Origin: a virus
IMG/VR virus record: IMGVR_UViG_3300021962_000167
Coordinates: 1-49,520 of that record
Reading direction: 5' to 3' (one strand)
DNA length: 49,520 nucleotides
Part shown: one piece after another, positions 2,686-17,969 of the stretch
How positions within the stretch are numbered: the first letter of the stretch is position 1
Layout of the letters: each line of letters begins with the position of its first letter
Made by a program: the position numbers and the translations under genes
Notes under the pieces: model-generated
Database searches by the model: none
Told to the model about the DNA's origin: nothing
What the model saw: the letters and a program-made list of their open reading frames with translations, nothing else

Positions 2686-5124
2686 TTAAGCGTTTTGAGA
2701 TTGCTCTAATTTAGCAATCCTTTCTTCTGCTTCTTTTAGTTTGTCAACCAAGTAAGAAACAGCAGCCCACAGATACGGGGTTCGTTTGCCTTGGTCTACA
2801 CCCCAAGGCACATACACAGCACCCTCTGTTCCTTCCTCAACTTCTTCATCGTCCTTGAACCAACCGCCTTTAGTTGCGAGGTCTTCAGAAACTCCATAAG
2901 ATGTCTGCGCTCCCCATCCAACGGCATATCCGCCGCCGCGCTCTGGTTTCCAGTTAAATTCTCTAACAGGGTCTGCTTTTATTATATCAATGGCTTTTTC
3001 GGCGGGGTATTCTCCGATAAAGTTTTTTGCTTTTTCATCAGATAGCACATTGTATGCAGTTCCAGTCCCGCTTGTTGTAATTGATCCAACTTGGTTATTT
3101 GTGTTATGAAATGTTAGATGCTCTCTTGTCGAGGAAGTAATCGTTTGAGTTCTAATTGCTGCTGAAGATGCAGAAGCTACTGCAATGTGCATCTGCGCTC
3201 CCAACCCATCGATTTGAGAGGTAGCAGTATAGAGATAGTTAAGACCAGTATACTTTGTTGTACCAGTGTTGTTAAAATTGTACTCAACATTACCGACGCT
3301 ACCACCAAAAGTTTCAGTAAAATCACCGCCATTGTGAGCAGTCAAATAATTAGCACCACCTGCGTTGTATGATGTGACATATGCGCCATAATAATGATTA
3401 GCTGTGCCAGATGCGTTTGTTATTTGCAATGGATAAGTATTGGAAATATTATCAACAGCTTTTAGTGTTATATAATTAACATCCGCCATGTTGCGAGTGT
3501 ATTTGTCAACGAACATTCCAACATCAGCACCATTAACGTCGAAGTTACCAACCATCCAAACTGAGCTTGGTGGATTGCCATTAGCTACGTTTTCTCCAGC
3601 AGTAAAAGCAGCGCACAATCCCAATTTACTTGTAAATACATGGAAATACCCAGTCGTCCAGCTTGGCGCAGTTAATAGAGATTTATAAGCATTCGTTAGT
3701 GACCCACCATTAAATACTCCATTATTATTCCACAATGCATCCGCATCAGCATTAACATAAAGAAGATTGTTTTTATATCCATCAAGCCCCTCGCCTGACC
3801 TTAATCTTCCAGTTCCAATATAATATACCTTATTGGTGGTAGAATCATAAAATCCACCCGGAGGTCTGCTTTCACTTAAAATTCCTGCATCTTGAGAAAT
3901 GCCCCAATTAAGAAGGTTGGTGATCTTATAAACTTGAAGGTTGCCTGTGGCTTGTCTTACATAGGCCAACCAACGATCAGTATCTCCAAGACGAATAACG
4001 ATGTTTTCACTTGTGATGGTTGATCCAGTGACATCTAATACGGTAGACCATGTATTTCCGTTATCGACGGTTGTAAAAGCGTCGAGTCCACCAGCATCGA
4101 TGTACCCAAAACTCAAAAATCCAGTTGCGTCATTTCCGCCTTGACTGGCTGGAAATGAAATAATTCCTGTAACAGAAGCAAATGTATATGTTGTGCTTGA
4201 TGTGGGAACTTCTAATTTTGTCCATGTAACTCCTTCATCATCAGAATAAATAAACAGAGGAAATTTGTTGTTTGCGGGAGTAGCGGATGCTCTGTTACAG
4301 AAGAAACCAATTCGACCATTAGCCATTACTGCGAGCTTGTCTGGGCGAGAATCAGTAGTTGGGTCTGTTTGGATTAAACGATCATTTACCCAAGACAAAC
4401 CAAAATCATAAGAATCTGCTGCACGAACTTCAGTTCCATCCTCAGTTCCGTGCTGTGTTCCCTTACGATATATTTGAACCCATTTAGTAGAATTGGGTAT
4501 TTCCACAACAGAACCCCAAGCATAATGAGCGTCCCTTTTTTCGCCAGCTATTAAGCGCAATCCAGTTCTTCCGAATGGAGTATTTTCAGCCACTAATCCA
4601 AAGTCTTTGACGTTCACAACATCCGCCATGCGTGTGACAAGATCACGGGCGGTCGTTGTGCCTGTAGCTAAAATTGGAGTGGTTGCGACAATGGCATCGG
4701 AAAGACCGGGAGCGAGCTTGGCTGACGTGACGGCCCCGTCTGCGAGCTTGGACGAGCTGATTTCTCCATCGGGGATCTTCCCGGCGGTTATGCTGGCATT
4801 AGCGATTTTATCTGTTGTGACCGCCCCGGCGGGGATCTTGGTCGAAACAACCGCCCCGTCTGCAATCTTGACCGATGTAATCGCGCCGTCCTCCAGCGAG
4901 CCTGTTGCGATGCTGCCTTCTGGGATCGAGATGATGTCGTCGCGGAGCTGGCCGTCGTCGCGCTGAATTTCGTTGAGCCGCGAAATGGTCTGATTAACCG
5001 AGGTCTTGATGGCTTCGTACTCTGCATCAAGATCAGCAGCCGCCATGCCTATTGAGTAGTTGGGGTTCCCGGCGTCTGTTGTGAAGTTGTTTTGGCGCGT
5101 GTAAGGCGTTGGTGCTTGTGACAT
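2686..5124 (-). CDS. Tail spike B, sialidase-like propeller with S74 chaperone domain (812 aa)
   Basis: The N-terminal 70 residues are homologous to spike A (QAPTPYTRQNNFTTDAGNP, DLDAEYEAIK). About seven short DGAITS/KIADG-type repeats follow, then the shared hinge ADVVNVKDFG. The middle contains Asp-box-like motifs (SYDFGLSW, SDDEGVTW, DNGNTW) typical of bacterial and phage sialidase beta-propellers. The C-terminus has LSDEKAKNFI, matching the SD..K signature of the Peptidase S74 intramolecular chaperone, and finishes in a coiled coil (VDKLKEAEERIAKLE). The inferred job is a trimeric spike that binds or cleaves a sialic-acid-like glycan and releases its chaperone by autocleavage. I have not confirmed the full sialidase active site. 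Confidence 0.8.
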   Translation of the reverse strand: MSQAPTPYTRQNNFTTDAGNPNYSIGMAAADLDAEYEAIKTSVNQTISRLNEIQRDDGQLRDDIISIPEGSIATGSLEDGAITSVKIADGAVVSTKIPAGAVTTDKIANASITAGKIPDGEISSSKLADGAVTSAKLAPGLSDAIVATTPILATGTTTARDLVTRMADVVNVKDFGLVAENTPFGRTGLRLIAGEKRDAHYAWGSVVEIPNSTKWVQIYRKGTQHGTEDGTEVRAADSYDFGLSWVNDRLIQTDPTTDSRPDKLAVMANGRIGFFCNRASATPANNKFPLFIYSDDEGVTWTKLEVPTSSTTYTFASVTGIISFPASQGGNDATGFLSFGYIDAGGLDAFTTVDNGNTWSTVLDVTGSTITSENIVIRLGDTDRWLAYVRQATGNLQVYKITNLLNWGISQDAGILSESRPPGGFYDSTTNKVYYIGTGRLRSGEGLDGYKNNLLYVNADADALWNNNGVFNGGSLTNAYKSLLTAPSWTTGYFHVFTSKLGLCAAFTAGENVANGNPPSSVWMVGNFDVNGADVGMFVDKYTRNMADVNYITLKAVDNISNTYPLQITNASGTANHYYGAYVTSYNAGGANYLTAHNGGDFTETFGGSVGNVEYNFNNTGTTKYTGLNYLYTATSQIDGLGAQMHIAVASASSAAIRTQTITSSTREHLTFHNTNNQVGSITTSGTGTAYNVLSDEKAKNFIGEYPAEKAIDIIKADPVREFNWKPERGGGYAVGWGAQTSYGVSEDLATKGGWFKDDEEVEEGTEGAVYVPWGVDQGKRTPYLWAAVSYLVDKLKEAEERIAKLEQSQNA

Positions 5125-12913: not shown

Positions 12914-13105
12914 TCAAATTTGGCTTGATCTGCCAGTATTTTTGTTCTCCAGCTCAACTTTCAGCCGCTGCGCGGCTTCGTCTGCTTCTTGTCTGGCGAT
13001 TGCGACTTGCGCTTCGTTCGGCGGATCGCCTTCGGTCATAATGCCGATGCGTTCGTCGAACGTGTATTGCCAGTGATCCTTGAGTACTTGAAATGGAATG
13101 CTCAT
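12914..13105 (-). CDS. Small hypothetical protein, last gene of early operon (63 aa)
   Basis: The start at 13105 overlaps the primase-helicase stop as ATGA. The protein has an aromatic N-terminal part (PFQVLKDHWQYTFDERIG) and a charged helical C-terminal part (AIARQEADEAAQRLKVELE), possibly a coiled coil. No family is recognised. It ends ten bases before the T tract of the convergent terminator. Confidence 0.65.
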   Translation of the reverse strand: MSIPFQVLKDHWQYTFDERIGIMTEGDPPNEAQVAIARQEADEAAQRLKVELENKNTGRSSQI

Positions 13106-15498
13106 GAGTCACTAAACGGGTTTACGACTTCATCACGCTTCATTACGGCGTTTTGTGCTTGACAGAACGCATACAGCGACCAGTCGGGGATGTCCGTGTA
13201 CGCGCCAGCCGAGATCTCCGCGCCAGCTTCGTCTGATGCGAGTCGCCCAGACGGGGCGTCAACGTACTGCTTGGACTTGGAGCCACGCACCGAGCAACCG
13301 ACGAGCTTGCCGTCTTCCATCGCGGCGGACAGAAGCCGGGGAAGCTCCGCGTCACCCAAATGACGGAGAGTCGGCGGCAGTTCAGCCCGTCTGCGGTACA
13401 GGCCGCTCGCCGAGTTTTTAGCTCCCGTGGTGTATGGATGTCCGCGTTCTGCCGCAAGACGGCAAGCAACGATCAGCCACGCTACGCGTTCCGCGTATGT
13501 GTCGCCTGCGAACATGTCGAGGTGCGTGACGTCATCCATCAGTCCGCGATTGTTCCGCAGTAGTGTGCGCTCGCCTTTCATTAGTCCGTGGATGTTCGCC
13601 TTGGCGACACCGAAACGCCAGAGCGCATTTTGTTCTGGCTTCATACCCATCGCCTTCATGCGCCGAGCGTAGTCGCCGCAGGTGAACATGCCGAAGTTGA
13701 TGCGGAAGTACGACGAGATCGCAGACGATCCACGGATCGCGGCGTTCAGATCCTCCAGCGAGGCGATACGTTGATCCTTGGATGTCTTGCGAACGTGGTG
13801 ATTGACGATGAGCGCGGCGTCCAGCTCGCCGCAGACACGATGCGCTTCGCGCATCATTTGCGAGATCGCCAGTGCCGAGTTTTCATCGCCGTGACTGACG
13901 CTGTTGAGCGTGTCGATGCAGACCAGAACCAGATCGTCCAGTTCTTTGAGCAATGCCAGCATTTCTGCCCAGCGTTTCGACGGGCGGGATTCGCCTGTCT
14001 TGTGATCGAACTCGACAAGCGGAAACGCGCCACCCAGCCGAGTCATCGGCAGGATGATCAGCTTGTCGCCAGCCTTGGCGATGCGGTCGTCGCTGTTGAT
14101 CTCCAGCAGGCGTCGGTGCATTTCTGTCTGGCTGTCCTCGCACAGAATCAGCACCGCTGTGCCGCCACGAATCACCTTCTGACCGCACCACTGCGTTGTC
14201 GTGCCGTCATACGACGCCAGCTTCAAAGCAAGGTCTGCGACCTGAAATGTCTTACCCGCCCCGCCCTGCGCCACAAACAAGTGCGGCTCGCCCTTGATGA
14301 CGAGATCATCGACAAGGTACTGGTGTTCGGGCTTCGGGTTCGTGATCCATCGGTGCGCTGCCCATGACCGCAAGCCCAGACCGCCATCGCGGATCGATTC
14401 GTCAACGATGGGTTTTTCCTTTTCTGGAAACGGGCCGTGGTGACGCACATCGTATGTCGCCAGCATCTCAAACTCGCGCTTGATTCGGTGATCGGGCCAT
14501 GCGGGTTTCATGTAGTTCAGCACCCATCCGTGCGTGTAGTCGTATGCTTCCTCGATTGTCATCTCGCCGCGACGGGCCATCGATATGTGCAGCCCCGCCA
14601 CCTTGTTGAACTGCCCCCAGCGGGTGCGATCCTCGCCGTTTTCGTACACGGGTGTCTGGAGCGCGTCTGTGGCGGTCGTTCCCATTCCCCCGGATGTCGG
14701 GGAGAACTTCAGCTCGCCCGATTGGAAGTCGATGACGTTGCCTGTCTGCGGTTGCTGGATTGCCCACGGGCTGGCAGGCATCACCTTCAGCGCGGCTGAC
14801 ATGTCGGTCAGACTGTAGAACCGCTCGCTGGTGGACTCGATGGTGCAGGCAGACGGGATGCCTTTCTTGGCGTGAACCGATCCTGCAACACGTACTGGCT
14901 GATGTGCGCGGCCAAACGGGTTGCTGTCCACGCCCAGCCCCATGCTGATGTCGCCGCCGCACTTCCGCGCCAGCAGATCACGGGCAATGATCGCTTCGCG
15001 GATGTCGTCGGTCGGCTCGTCCAGAACGTAGTACACATGCCGCTTCGGCGTGTTCTCTTCCGTTGTGCCGCCCGACAGAACAACCATCGTCGGCTCGCCC
15101 AAGTGCGATCTCATGTATTCCAGCTTCGCGTCTGTGTCGCCCGAATCCAAATCCGCAAGGATGTTGGTGAACAAGCTGACGTTCTCCGCTGTGCCGCGTT
15201 GCTCCCGCAGGATGGCTGGAACAACGAAGGTAGCGACTTGGTTCTTCGCCCACATCGTGACGCAGTTCATGACGCCTTCTGTCGGATCAGCCAGCGACGG
15301 CTGGAAGAAGTTGTCGCTGCGATAATCGCCTTCCTGCGGCGTGCCTTTCTCGCCAATCCCCCGCAGACACAGGTGCGTGCGGTCGTTCCACTTGACACGC
15401 CCGAACAGCGTGCCGAAGAACTGGATTACTTCATCTTGGTTTATAAGAGACGATGCGTATGCCGCATCGAATTGGTCGTTGGTTTGTGTGTTGGTCAT
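13102..15498 (-). CDS. Primase-polymerase/RepA-like helicase fusion (798 aa)
   Basis: I use ATG at 15498, which overlaps the methyltransferase stop as ATGA; the frame is open upstream but there it overlaps the methyltransferase. The N-terminal 250 residues look like an archaeo-eukaryotic primase: ADLDSGD at 115-121, RHVYYVLD at 153-160 and HQPVRVAGSVHAKKG at 199-213. The C-terminal part is a RecA-like (AAA_25/RepA) helicase: Walker A AQGGAGKT at 410-417, ILCEDSQ at 451, Walker B LVLVCIDTLNS at 523-533 and NHHVRK at 566. It would open the origin and prime replication for the host polymerase. A basic C-terminal tail of 150 residues has no assignment. Confidence 0.85.
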   Translation of the reverse strand: MTNTQTNDQFDAAYASSLINQDEVIQFFGTLFGRVKWNDRTHLCLRGIGEKGTPQEGDYRSDNFFQPSLADPTEGVMNCVTMWAKNQVATFVVPAILREQRGTAENVSLFTNILADLDSGDTDAKLEYMRSHLGEPTMVVLSGGTTEENTPKRHVYYVLDEPTDDIREAIIARDLLARKCGGDISMGLGVDSNPFGRAHQPVRVAGSVHAKKGIPSACTIESTSERFYSLTDMSAALKVMPASPWAIQQPQTGNVIDFQSGELKFSPTSGGMGTTATDALQTPVYENGEDRTRWGQFNKVAGLHISMARRGEMTIEEAYDYTHGWVLNYMKPAWPDHRIKREFEMLATYDVRHHGPFPEKEKPIVDESIRDGGLGLRSWAAHRWITNPKPEHQYLVDDLVIKGEPHLFVAQGGAGKTFQVADLALKLASYDGTTTQWCGQKVIRGGTAVLILCEDSQTEMHRRLLEINSDDRIAKAGDKLIILPMTRLGGAFPLVEFDHKTGESRPSKRWAEMLALLKELDDLVLVCIDTLNSVSHGDENSALAISQMMREAHRVCGELDAALIVNHHVRKTSKDQRIASLEDLNAAIRGSSAISSYFRINFGMFTCGDYARRMKAMGMKPEQNALWRFGVAKANIHGLMKGERTLLRNNRGLMDDVTHLDMFAGDTYAERVAWLIVACRLAAERGHPYTTGAKNSASGLYRRRAELPPTLRHLGDAELPRLLSAAMEDGKLVGCSVRGSKSKQYVDAPSGRLASDEAGAEISAGAYTDIPDWSLYAFCQAQNAVMKRDEVVNPFSDS

Positions 15499-16661
15499 TT
15501 TAATTCTGCTAAAAGAGTTCTGAATGCTCGCTCTGCGGTGGCAGGCACGACTCCGTTGCCGAGGAGTCGGAGTTCGTCGGTGCGATTGTCGCAGGAGACA
15601 CACAGCTCGGCATAGTCCACCCCACCGGCAGGCCCATCAGCGTCTCGACCCAGCGAGGGTTGAGCTTCCCTGTCGCCTTTGCTTCCACTTCCACATTGGG
15701 CTGCTTGTATTGAACTATCGTTGAATCTCGGTGACCGCTCTTGTGATCCTTCGCTTGTGGGGTTGCCCATTGCGCCGCCATCTGCCTGCTCAATGTCACC
15801 TTCCCCTCCTCTATCCGCTTCTGCGCCACTTCCGGCGTTGAGGCCAGATGCGAGTCGCCCATGATCGGCGTTGCCCATTGCTTTTTCTGCTCCGCTGCAA
15901 CATGATCCCGCAGTTTGTATTTCCCCGCACAGCCCTCCCGCATCTCCATCACTCCTCCCTCGCCGTCCGATGCTCCCGGTGTGCGCCAATCCTGTTGTGA
16001 CTCTGGGCGGCTCCCATGCGTGCTGGGGTTCGCCGGGGCGGGAGGGCCATACATTTTCACTGTTGCCGCAAGCAAAGAATTTCTCTGAATGTGATTCGTG
16101 CAACTCTTCGACCCCAACGGCCCCGTGTCTTTCGAGTCGTTCGCTTGACAGGTGGGCCAAGATGAAGACCCGCTTGCGCTGGTGAGGCGCACCGACTTCG
16201 CTCGCGCTGAATATTCCCCACGACACCTTGTAACCCAACTCTTCCAGATCGCTGATGACGCTGGAGAGTCCCAACGAGATGTGTCCTTCGACGTTTTCAA
16301 AGAAACAGAGTCGAGGCTGAATAACTCGTATTGAATCTCTGATGTAGGGCCAGAGGTGTCTTGGGTCGTTTTCTCCTTGCCGCTTTCCTGCTGCGGAGAA
16401 TGGCTGACAAGGGTATCCCGCAACAAGGATGTCCACTTTTCCTCGAAAGCCTTCGCATGGGAAGGTTTTAATATCCGTCCAAAGAGGTGCTGCGTCCATG
16501 AGTCCCGCTTCCATTTTGCTAACCAAGTTCGCAATGGCGAATGCTTCGATCTCACCATAAGCGATTGTGAGCAGGCTTGGGATTGCTCGTTTAAGTCCAA
16601 GAGAAATGCCTCCGTATCCGGCGCACCACTCAATGCATGTAGTTGTTTTGGTAGTATCCAC
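15495..16661 (-). CDS. DNA (cytosine-5) methyltransferase (388 aa)
   Basis: C5-methyltransferase motifs appear in order: motif I WCAGYGGISLG (12-22), motif IV GYPCQPFS (82-89, catalytic C85), motif VI ENVEG (122-126), motif VIII QRKRVF (161-166) and a C-terminal motif X LRLLGNGVVPATAERAF (364-380). The middle target-recognition part is Gly/Ser/Arg-rich. Motif I requires a start upstream of codon 12, and the only candidate is GTG at 16661, which shares its first G with the ATG of the overlapping frame (ATGTG). The leader is CAACAACCACAACAACAAT. It may protect phage DNA from restriction; the target site is unknown. Confidence 0.88.
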   Translation of the reverse strand: MDTTKTTTCIEWCAGYGGISLGLKRAIPSLLTIAYGEIEAFAIANLVSKMEAGLMDAAPLWTDIKTFPCEGFRGKVDILVAGYPCQPFSAAGKRQGENDPRHLWPYIRDSIRVIQPRLCFFENVEGHISLGLSSVISDLEELGYKVSWGIFSASEVGAPHQRKRVFILAHLSSERLERHGAVGVEELHESHSEKFFACGNSENVWPSRPGEPQHAWEPPRVTTGLAHTGSIGRRGRSDGDAGGLCGEIQTAGSCCSGAEKAMGNADHGRLASGLNAGSGAEADRGGEGDIEQADGGAMGNPTSEGSQERSPRFNDSSIQAAQCGSGSKGDREAQPSLGRDADGPAGGVDYAELCVSCDNRTDELRLLGNGVVPATAERAFRTLLAELK

Positions 16662-16663
16662 AT
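15509..16663 (-). CDS. Full-length alternative-frame ORF inside the methyltransferase gene (384 aa)
   Basis: A second frame stays open for 384 codons over almost the whole methyltransferase gene and has the better start (ATG at 16663). Its product begins MWILPKQLHALSGAPDTEAF and contains KWKRDSWTQHL and RILKPSHAKAF, then WPTCQANDSKDTG and WATPQAKDHKSG repeats, and LNPRWVETLMGLPVGWT near 334-350. From memory, WPTP-AxD repeats and LNPxWVExLMGxPxGWT occur in annotated phage proteins, some labelled methyltransferase-like, so this frame may be truly translated. It could equally be a conserved by-product of methyltransferase codon constraints. Protein evidence is lacking. Confidence 0.45.
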   Translation of the reverse strand: MWILPKQLHALSGAPDTEAFLLDLNEQSQACSQSLMVRSKHSPLRTWLAKWKRDSWTQHLFGRILKPSHAKAFEEKWTSLLRDTLVSHSPQQESGKEKTTQDTSGPTSEIQYELFSLDSVSLKTSKDTSRWDSPASSAIWKSWVTRCRGEYSARAKSVRLTSASGSSSWPTCQANDSKDTGPLGSKSCTNHIQRNSLLAATVKMYGPPAPANPSTHGSRPESQQDWRTPGASDGEGGVMEMREGCAGKYKLRDHVAAEQKKQWATPIMGDSHLASTPEVAQKRIEEGKVTLSRQMAAQWATPQAKDHKSGHRDSTIVQYKQPNVEVEAKATGKLNPRWVETLMGLPVGWTMPSCVSPATIAPTNSDSSATESCLPPQSEHSELF

Positions 16664-16692
16664 TTATTATTATTGTTGTTGTGGTTGTTGGA

Positions 16693-17472
16693 TCACCTCA
16701 TCCAAAACGGCTTCGCCGTTGTGATCTCCGTTGGCTTGCTCGAAACTGTCGTGGAATGACAGTTTGTCTTGTAGTCGCAAAAACGGCATTGGAAGTTGGC
16801 TGCGTCGTCTGTGATCCGAGACAGCTCTTCCGGGCGGGATGACTTCACCACCCGCAGAGCGCGGTCAGACACATCCTGCGCGGTGCGGGCGTCGTACGGG
16901 ACATGCTCGTAATGGATTTCGCCGTTGTTCTTGTTGATGGCAACGAACAGACCGCCGTTCGGAACATCGAAGTAAGCGCAGTACGTCTGAATCTGCGCGT
17001 AGTACACGGGCTTGGATTCCTTGACGCCTTTCTTCTTCGTGTCGTTCCACGATTTGTCGTTGAGGCTTTTGCACTCAAAGACCAGCGGGTACGGAAGATC
17101 GATTGGCCCTGCGTGCAGGATGCCGTCGCAGTGACCGCCGAGCTTGCCGTCTGCCACGAAGAAGCCGATCTGCTTGCCGTCCTCGTTCTCGTTCTCCAGC
17201 TTGAATCCAGCCAGCCGCATGTATTCAACAACGCGGTCTTCGTAGTCATGTCCCGCATCGAAGATGCGGTATGTCTGGCCTGAAAATCCTTTGTCTTTCG
17301 GGGTGTGATGGAACTCGTATGCCAGCTTGCGCTCGCACGCCTCGCCCCAGCGCGATGCGCCAAGGTATTGGCGCGGTGTTTCTTTCTTGCGTTCGGTCTG
17401 GATTGCTTCGTCCACGATGGGCGCGATGCGATCAGACACGTCGTTTTCGTTTTTGGTTTCGGGTTTGAACAT
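16693..17472 (-). CDS. PD-(D/E)XK nuclease, Cas4/RecB-like (259 aa)
   Basis: The nuclease core is visible as GHCDGI (metal-binding Asp), FECKSLN (ExK) and YYAQIQTYCAYF (QxxxY helix) between about residues 115 and 170. Near the C-terminus, CRFCDYKTNCHS has three cysteines as in Cas4-type iron-sulfur enzymes; a fourth, C47, lies in GEACERK. It is likely a 5'-3' exonuclease making single strands for the Sak4-like recombinase and SSB of the same operon. It starts three bases after the previous gene's stop, after an A-rich leader with no Shine-Dalgarno. Confidence 0.82.
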   Translation of the reverse strand: MFKPETKNENDVSDRIAPIVDEAIQTERKKETPRQYLGASRWGEACERKLAYEFHHTPKDKGFSGQTYRIFDAGHDYEDRVVEYMRLAGFKLENENEDGKQIGFFVADGKLGGHCDGILHAGPIDLPYPLVFECKSLNDKSWNDTKKKGVKESKPVYYAQIQTYCAYFDVPNGGLFVAINKNNGEIHYEHVPYDARTAQDVSDRALRVVKSSRPEELSRITDDAANFQCRFCDYKTNCHSTTVSSKPTEITTAKPFWMR

Positions 17473-17475
17473 AAA

Positions 17476-17685
17476 TTATTTTTTCTTTTTGTAATACTTT
17501 GTCATTGCCTCCAACAGCTCGACTGGCTCGCCTTCGCCCGTGTCAAGGAATTTTCTGACAGTGTGCGGAAGATCGTCACCGCGAAGGTGCATCGGTGAGA
17601 GCTGGCGCAGCGGGAAGGCAGACATGTGGATCTCCAGTTTGCCTCCATTGCCCAGCCCAAGGAACGGGATCAGTGGTGACTTCAT
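17476..17685 (-). CDS. Small hypothetical protein (69 aa)
   Basis: The start overlaps the stop of the upstream gene by ATGA. The protein begins MKSPLIPFLGLGNGGKLEIH and ends in a lysine tail (TKYYKKKK). It has no membrane helix or known motif. Its place in an unbroken coupled chain of early genes supports expression; function unknown. Confidence 0.65.
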   Translation of the reverse strand: MKSPLIPFLGLGNGGKLEIHMSAFPLRQLSPMHLRGDDLPHTVRKFLDTGEGEPVELLEAMTKYYKKKK

Positions 17686-17969
17686 CCGTTGTTTTCCTCA
17701 AAGCCAGCGATCTCTGCGGCACAGCGTGCGTAACCAGCCGCATCGACGAATGTGTCGCGTGTCGGCGTGTAGCAGGCACGGGCGATCTTCAGAATCAACA
17801 TCATGACCGCCGCGTCGTATGAGCTGATCGGCGCGGTTGGGTCTTTGCGTGCATTCAGATACCAGTTCCAGCCGTCTGCGATGCGCTTGTGGTTTGGTTC
17901 TGCCGCGTCATAGTCACGGCGGCGTGCGCCGCTCGTGACTTCCAGTGCTTCTTCAAGGATGGATTTCAT
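17682..17969 (-). CDS. DUF6378-like phage protein (95 aa)
   Basis: The sequence contains RRRDYDAAEPNHKRIADGW and AVMMLILKIARACYTPTRDTFVDAAGYARC. The pattern R..DY..P..N..RIA..W......P......D.A.MM.LLKIAR......D...D.AGY is the one I know from the phage family DUF6378, sometimes compared with nucleotide-pool proteins. The biochemical role is not known. It is coupled by ATGA overlaps to both neighbours. Confidence 0.75.
   Translation of the reverse strand: MKSILEEALEVTSGARRRDYDAAEPNHKRIADGWNWYLNARKDPTAPISSYDAAVMMLILKIARACYTPTRDTFVDAAGYARCAAEIAGFEENNG

Follow-up and report, generated by a model that had tools for sequence, protein, structure and literature searches.

A phage locus in which two overlapping frames with fused start codons probably encode the subunits of one C5-cytosine DNA methyltransferase

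Two-polypeptide C5-cytosine DNA methyltransferases divide the conserved motifs of the enzyme between their chains in different ways. M.EcoHK31I (site YGGCCR) carries motifs I-VIII and X in a large polypeptide and needs a second, smaller one for motif IX, while M.AquI has its catalytic half and its recognition/IX half in separate polypeptides (PMC3404938). Out-of-frame proteins within phage methylase genes are also known, namely the HNH endonucleases of the ShiLan type, which represent mobile insertions (PMC11855218). In Escherichia coli, AUGUG is able to initiate both frames and ambiguous AUG/GUG starts are found, for example, in pqiA and tamA (PMC9841429). Here we analyze a locus in an IMG/VR virus record of 49,520 bases (IMGVR_UViG_3300021962_000167, the whole of which is referred to as the window) where two frames, alpha and beta, cover the same DNA. 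We consider it probable that a heterodimeric phage C5-cytosine DNA methyltransferase has both of its subunits encoded here by one dual-frame gene. Its full-length overlap, its fused starts and the proposed recognition modules in beta set it apart from the M.EcoHK31I precedent, and searches of the open-licence PMC literature yielded no description of this dual-coded family.

Alpha and beta overlap almost end to end on the minus strand, to which all window coordinates given below refer. The C5-cytosine methyltransferase frame, alpha, occupies positions 15495-16661 and encodes 388 amino acids from a GTG start at 16661. Beta lies in the +1 frame relative to alpha, occupies positions 15509-16663 and encodes 384 amino acids from an ATG start at 16663. 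The two start codons are fused as ATGTG (16659-16663) and are preceded by a leader that is rich in CAA and TAA and has no Shine-Dalgarno motif (16664-16690); it reads CAACAACAATAATAATAA on the 5' side of the common start. A preliminary description of this DNA had reported a 388-codon GTG frame and a 384-codon ATG frame with starts fused behind a CAA-rich leader, and the sequence agrees with it in all of these respects.

Related loci maintain the second frame in a constant position and largely free of stops. Scans of viral contigs yielded 242 full-length relatives for beta and at least 599 relatives for alpha, and the alpha scan of bacterial and archaeal genomes identified 19 more. A beta relative is present in the same relative frame in 176 of the 176 loci where both were found, including loci fetched with alpha only. 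When 254 related loci were searched with a beta profile and by profile searches, 253 showed the overlap, with a homologous beta in the same relative frame, and the short overlaps correspond to contig ends or, in locus L235, to a split form. No beta without a methyltransferase frame was found among the 254 loci, and no stand-alone beta homologue was found in plasmids either. Stops in the beta frame were counted to the end of alpha and consequently include beta's own stop and anything beyond it. Counted in this way, the window gene contains 2 beta-frame stops compared with a mean of 7.7 after synonymous-codon shuffling within alpha (p < 1/300), and 113 non-redundant loci contain 171 compared with 726 expected from the same shuffling. 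The third (other plus) frame of these 113 loci contains 1,954 stops. Within the first 175 codons, 0 beta-frame stops are observed compared with about 3,700 expected under a null with control-gene silent divergence, a figure obtained from locus pairs that are not independent. Scattered second-frame stops in homologous loci, which the preliminary description had named as the mark of a frame that is not a gene, are not seen.

Selection at the protein level acts on both frames. Since the locus pairs compared are not independent, the following figures are effect sizes and not p-values. Identity at alpha fourfold-degenerate sites is 0.71-0.83, compared with 0.47-0.63 in neighboring control genes (60-90% protein identity). 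Using a null in which the alpha amino acids are kept and silent divergence is set to the control-gene level, the 60% bin gives a frame-2 (beta-frame) identity of 0.66 versus 0.43 for the first 175 codons and 0.50 versus 0.32 after them. In the C-terminal half, 42% of single-base changes are synonymous in frame 2 with 28% expected, the value for the third frame being 13%, and third-position changes are synonymous in 85-88% of cases for frame 2 compared with 65-70% for the third frame. The selection and stop measures all point in one direction. Changes are not confined to methyltransferase-silent sites, the other outcome that had been set against a second gene; those sites are unusually conserved. 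The preliminary description had offered real dual coding and codon constraint as its two options, and the stop, silent-site and substitution data favor the former, indicating that beta is a real gene and not a by-product.

Alpha represents the catalytic frame. Separate searches of the two translations, proposed earlier as a check, assigned them to different families, with alpha matching Pfam PF00145 (E 3.7e-34, residues 8-184) and PHROG 363 (E 2.4e-54) and beta matching PHROG 1008 ('DNA methyltransferase', E 3.8e-22, residues 70-184). A Foldseek search with the alpha model returned M.HhaI as the top match (E 1.5e-11). For profile comparisons, we used A1 for beta, A2 for alpha and A4 for the recognition/IX/X part of related enzymes. 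Alpha carries catalytic motifs I-VIII and X, including I, IV (PCQ), VI (ENV), VIII (QRKR) and X (GNxVxP), and its catalytic residues are invariant across 57 sequences. P84, C85 and Q86 of motif IV (16404-16412) as well as E122, N123 and V124 of motif VI (16290-16298) are invariant in A2. Motif X, NRTDELRLLGNGVVPATAERAFRTLLAEL, is located at 15501-15587, and the C-terminal motif-X helix is predicted by AlphaFold with a predicted local distance difference test (pLDDT) score of 93-94. Residues 185-349 (15615-16109) are variable, of low complexity and mostly predicted to be unfolded, with pLDDT values mostly below 50 versus about 90 for the catalytic domain. The DNA encoding this segment overlaps the recognition modules and motif IX of beta. 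Neither motif IX nor a folded target-recognition domain was found in the alpha chain, A2 and A4 aligning over motif X only.

Beta contains repeated tryptophan-threonine-proline modules and a motif-IX-like stretch. Its family, PHROG 1008, also takes in Leyra gp62 (E 8.2e-74) and Lilbooboo gp33 (E 2.5e-33), and in several phages the frame that carries it is the one annotated as the gene, consistent with the earlier remark that second-frame motifs resemble annotated phage proteins. WPTPxAxD modules occur in beta together with the motif-IX-like LNPRWVETLMGLPVGWT. Alignment of A1 with A4 places W-x-T-P modules at W169, W226, W263 and W299 (15674-16159) and the motif-IX-like sequence KLNPRWVETLMGLPVGWT at 15614-15667. 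In this stretch L334, P336, W338, V339, L342, M343, P346, G348 and W349 are nearly invariant while N335 and G344 are invariant. Beta proteins contain 0-5 TP modules, and module count correlates with protein length (r=0.71). We propose that the W-x-T-P modules are target-recognition elements, an assignment that the module-length correlation would fit, and that beta may serve as a recognition/motif-IX subunit.

Single-chain and split relatives allow the motifs to be assigned to frames. The single-chain phage enzymes prophiGD91-2 gp27 and Phasih gp65 possess, all in one frame, motifs I-VIII, LPTPxAxD modules, LxPxFxEWMMGxPxGWV and GNGVVP; the +1 frame of the two single-chain relatives examined contains 8-10 stops. 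Streptomyces phage Lilbooboo and Gordonia phage Float294 encode two genes, the second of which begins in the +1 frame and carries the modules, motif IX and motif X; its products, Lilbooboo gp33 and Float294 gp61, align with the single-chain phage enzymes over the C-terminal halves of the latter (A4). In hhalign comparisons A1 matches A4 over the modules and motif IX (probability 94.6, E 7.2e-8) and A2 matches A4 over motif X only (probability 94.5, E 7.4e-8), both E-values being soft because A4 comprises only four sequences. This pattern indicates that one module is divided between both frames here, and the alignments show the motifs as partitioned between the alpha and beta frames. When a single-chain relative was aligned with the PDB, the alignment stopped short of motif IX, so that the tie to motif IX of M.HhaI is our own reading. 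In Lilbooboo (L181, ca. 1995-2012) alpha, gp32, ends with ATC TGA C inside the overlap with gp33, and a +1 shift there would join both parts. In Gordonia phage Gudmit (L260, 1288-2673) a single methyltransferase gene has some of its PTPxAxD modules in frame 0 and others in frame +1, a pattern resembling an exchange of modules between frames.

The resulting arrangement resembles each of the known systems in part. Similar to M.EcoHK31I, motifs I-VIII and X are located in alpha and motif IX in beta, a comparison made by description and involving a short motif and a four-sequence profile. The M.EcoHK31I beta polypeptide is reportedly encoded within alpha in a different reading frame, and at the present locus the second polypeptide likewise lies in an overlapping alternative frame. 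In contrast to M.EcoHK31I, where the predicted recognition domain belongs to the large subunit, recognition-like modules are found in beta, and beta spans the whole alpha gene with start codons common to both. The distribution of catalytic and recognition/IX parts over two chains is shared with M.AquI, but motif X of M.AquI goes with motif IX in the small subunit while it stays in alpha here. Lilbooboo gp32/gp33 and Float294 gp62/gp61 are M.AquI-like, with gp33 and gp61 carrying IX and X. Paenibacillus phage Shelly gp55/gp56, Leyra gp61/gp62, epsilon15 and N15 possess the same relative frame and the same alpha/beta motif split. However, their beta is a shorter PHROG 1008 form whose frame becomes open only partway through alpha, and consequently no fused start is present. 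Shelly gp56 is annotated as 'g55 internal gene', and both nested frames are named methyltransferase in Leyra. The ShiLan type likewise has an out-of-frame protein within a phage methylase gene, but no insertion and no HNH match is found here. An out-of-frame HNH insertion was rejected, as beta matches neither HNH nor any other Pfam family.

The start pair is conserved. ATGTG starts are found in 49 of 112 related loci and ATGACATG/ATGGACACATG starts in 44, together accounting for 93 of the 112 (ATGACATG in 37 loci, ATGGACACATGG in 7 loci). The beta ATG lies 2, 5 or 8 bases before the alpha start in these start types. Motifs similar to Shine-Dalgarno sequences are located upstream in 18 of the 49 ATGTG loci and 23 of the 37 ATGACATG loci, and the first 25 nucleotides past the start are nearly invariant. 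The fused start is similar to the AUGUG starts of E. coli, where overlapping AUG and GUG codons can initiate both frames (PMC9841429). While the alternative product of pqiA is a 15-residue peptide, both products of the present locus are about 385 residues long and conserved across phyla. Dual initiation would be expected in this phage as well.

Overall, the motif distribution suggests that alpha and beta are complementary halves of one DNA-methylating enzyme. Alpha would act as the catalytic subunit: it would bind S-adenosylmethionine, use motifs I-VIII to flip and attack the cytosine, and close the large domain by means of motif X. Beta would contribute what alpha is without, namely the small domain, the WPTPxAxD recognition modules and the motif-IX helix. 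Ribosomes arriving at the common AUGUG start could initiate in either frame, yielding both subunits from one leader at a roughly fixed ratio, and the enzyme that they form would methylate phage DNA, probably as a defense against host restriction. Translation of both frames, physical assembly, activity and the anti-restriction role are what we infer from the locus.

Several points weigh against this interpretation besides the small size of the A4 profile. The case is built on sequence comparison and predicted structures. Beta has no Pfam or NCBIfam match, the beta profile finds nothing in the PDB at E<=1, and beta modelled alone reaches an AlphaFold pLDDT of 54, too low for a fold search, which leaves its fold tentative. 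The motif-IX-like helix is short. In the N-terminal half the overall ratio for frame-2 synonymous changes is only 0.98, weaker than in the C-terminal half, so that stops, fourfold sites and third-position changes carry the frame-2 signal there. The alpha codons past the beta stop are too few to serve as an internal control. Lastly, alpha of two loci contains one in-frame stop while beta is open (L013, TAG at about position 641; L157, TAA at about position 3062), which could be due to sequencing error, recent decay or recoding.

Four other explanations can be considered, of which the first retains some weight although we regard it as unlikely. Dual coding would be real but beta would be an independent protein overprinting the methyltransferase gene, for example an anti-restriction or regulatory factor, and not a subunit. 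The N-terminal 160 residues of beta, which are strongly conserved (W2, P5, L8, S34, K40, W51, W56) and have no known homologue, are compatible with this possibility, and beta alone is missed by Pfam and PDB. On the other hand, the C-terminal half aligns by profile with the recognition/IX half of single-chain methyltransferases, in split relatives this module is present as a second methyltransferase gene, and none of the loci examined has beta without the methyltransferase frame. We give little credence to programmed frameshifting, by which motifs I-VIII from alpha would be joined to recognition and IX parts from frame 2, possibly with a return for motif X, in one polypeptide. Frame 2 is stop-free and constrained from its own start, upstream of any useful shift site, the beta start is conserved, two opposite shifts would be required and nested relatives have frame-2 stops immediately before the internal start. 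These features stand against the agreement of the joined order (I-VIII, recognition, IX, X) with that of single-chain relatives and the Lilbooboo alpha stop, which judged by eye could permit a +1 shift.

An open second frame resulting solely from codon and amino acid constraint in alpha is very improbable and was rejected as an artefact. High GC content and the scarcity of Leu, Val and Met codons followed by A do lower the expectation, the null mean being 7.7 stops and not hundreds, but stop depletion, fourfold sites, frame-2 identity, the substitution pattern and the stops in single-chain controls all contradict this explanation. Least probable of all is nucleotide-level constraint, such as RNA structure or a DNA signal, that freezes silent sites and thereby mimics frame-2 conservation. 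The near invariance of the 25 nucleotides past the start could be accounted for in this way, whereas the preference of C-half changes for frame-2 synonymy (42% vs 28%), the third-position values (85-88% vs 65-70%) and the variation of beta length in whole codons speak against it.

Phage contigs contain fused-start loci, and so do genome contigs of Verrucomicrobiota, Bacteroidota and Candidatus Fermentibacterota; Alphaproteobacteria carry related loci in which the beta frame begins GTGTGG. In a small catalytic-domain tree (35 rows, midpoint root) the fused-start loci and their alphaproteobacterial kin form one supported cluster, with single-chain, mixed and split forms intermingled elsewhere. 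A second lineage consists of epsilon15 beta-like relatives in 180 phage records, N15 among them, in which the beta start is internal to alpha; this lineage appears to follow the same dual-frame logic. The arrangement is found in several hundred related virus sequences, usually annotated as one of the two genes only. Within the epsilon15/N15 lineage the alpha frame is annotated in N15, RcPacific, ZX4, Vaitephage, LV-2017 and eiAU, while the beta-type frame alone is annotated, and the catalytic frame omitted, in PMG1 (L265), phiKX2 (L267), PhiXhv-7 (L270) and ZS04 (L271), where it is labelled 'DNA methyltransferase' or 'hypothetical protein'. Annotators give the name 'methyltransferase' to either frame in this lineage. 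We lean towards the broader view that a full-length two-frame obligate heterodimer made from one AUGUG is ancient and widespread, covering phage contigs, the Verrucomicrobiota, Bacteroidota, Fermentibacterota and Alphaproteobacteria genome contigs and the epsilon15/N15-like lineage, and that many database 'DNA methyltransferases' represent one frame only.

Some beta frames extend past the methyltransferase gene. In Edwardsiella phage eiAU (L273, 964-2388) beta is stop-free into the next gene, gp15, annotated as DNA methyltransferase, and in Klebsiella phage ZX4 (L268, 925-2274) it is stop-free into gp29, annotated as endonuclease VII. This read-through suggests beta fusions or reinitiation. 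Beta open reading frames also continue far beyond the alpha end in L203 (2488-4369), L187 (2500-4384) and L226 (2491-4036), possibly representing fusions to downstream domains.

Outside small viruses, few cases of long dual coding on a single strand have strong evolutionary support. In the present locus more than 1.1 kb is used for coding twice over, the two start codons are fused and the products are apparently halves of one enzyme, so that stoichiometry control and frame-exchange evolution become readable from living relatives, which include single-chain, split, nested and fully overlapping forms. One implication is that a phage methyltransferase whose annotation looks complete may lack activity if only the annotated frame is expressed, which would matter for cloning, structure work and REBASE-style predictions. 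Through the relatives in epsilon15 and N15, this question comes within reach of ordinary laboratory phages.

The window encodes phage genes including terminase and portal, and a replication block surrounds the dual-frame locus. No cognate nuclease for alpha/beta was recognised among the genes examined here. The next gene (13102-15498) encodes an AAA primase/helicase-like protein (Pfam AAA_25 E 5.4e-30; PHROG 239 E 3.3e-14), and its start codon overlaps the alpha stop (ATGA). The preceding gene (16693-17472) encodes a Cas4-like exonuclease (PHROG 1990 E 2.4e-73), directly upstream of which a DUF6378 protein (Pfam E 5.8e-22) is encoded at 17682-17969, likewise on the minus strand.

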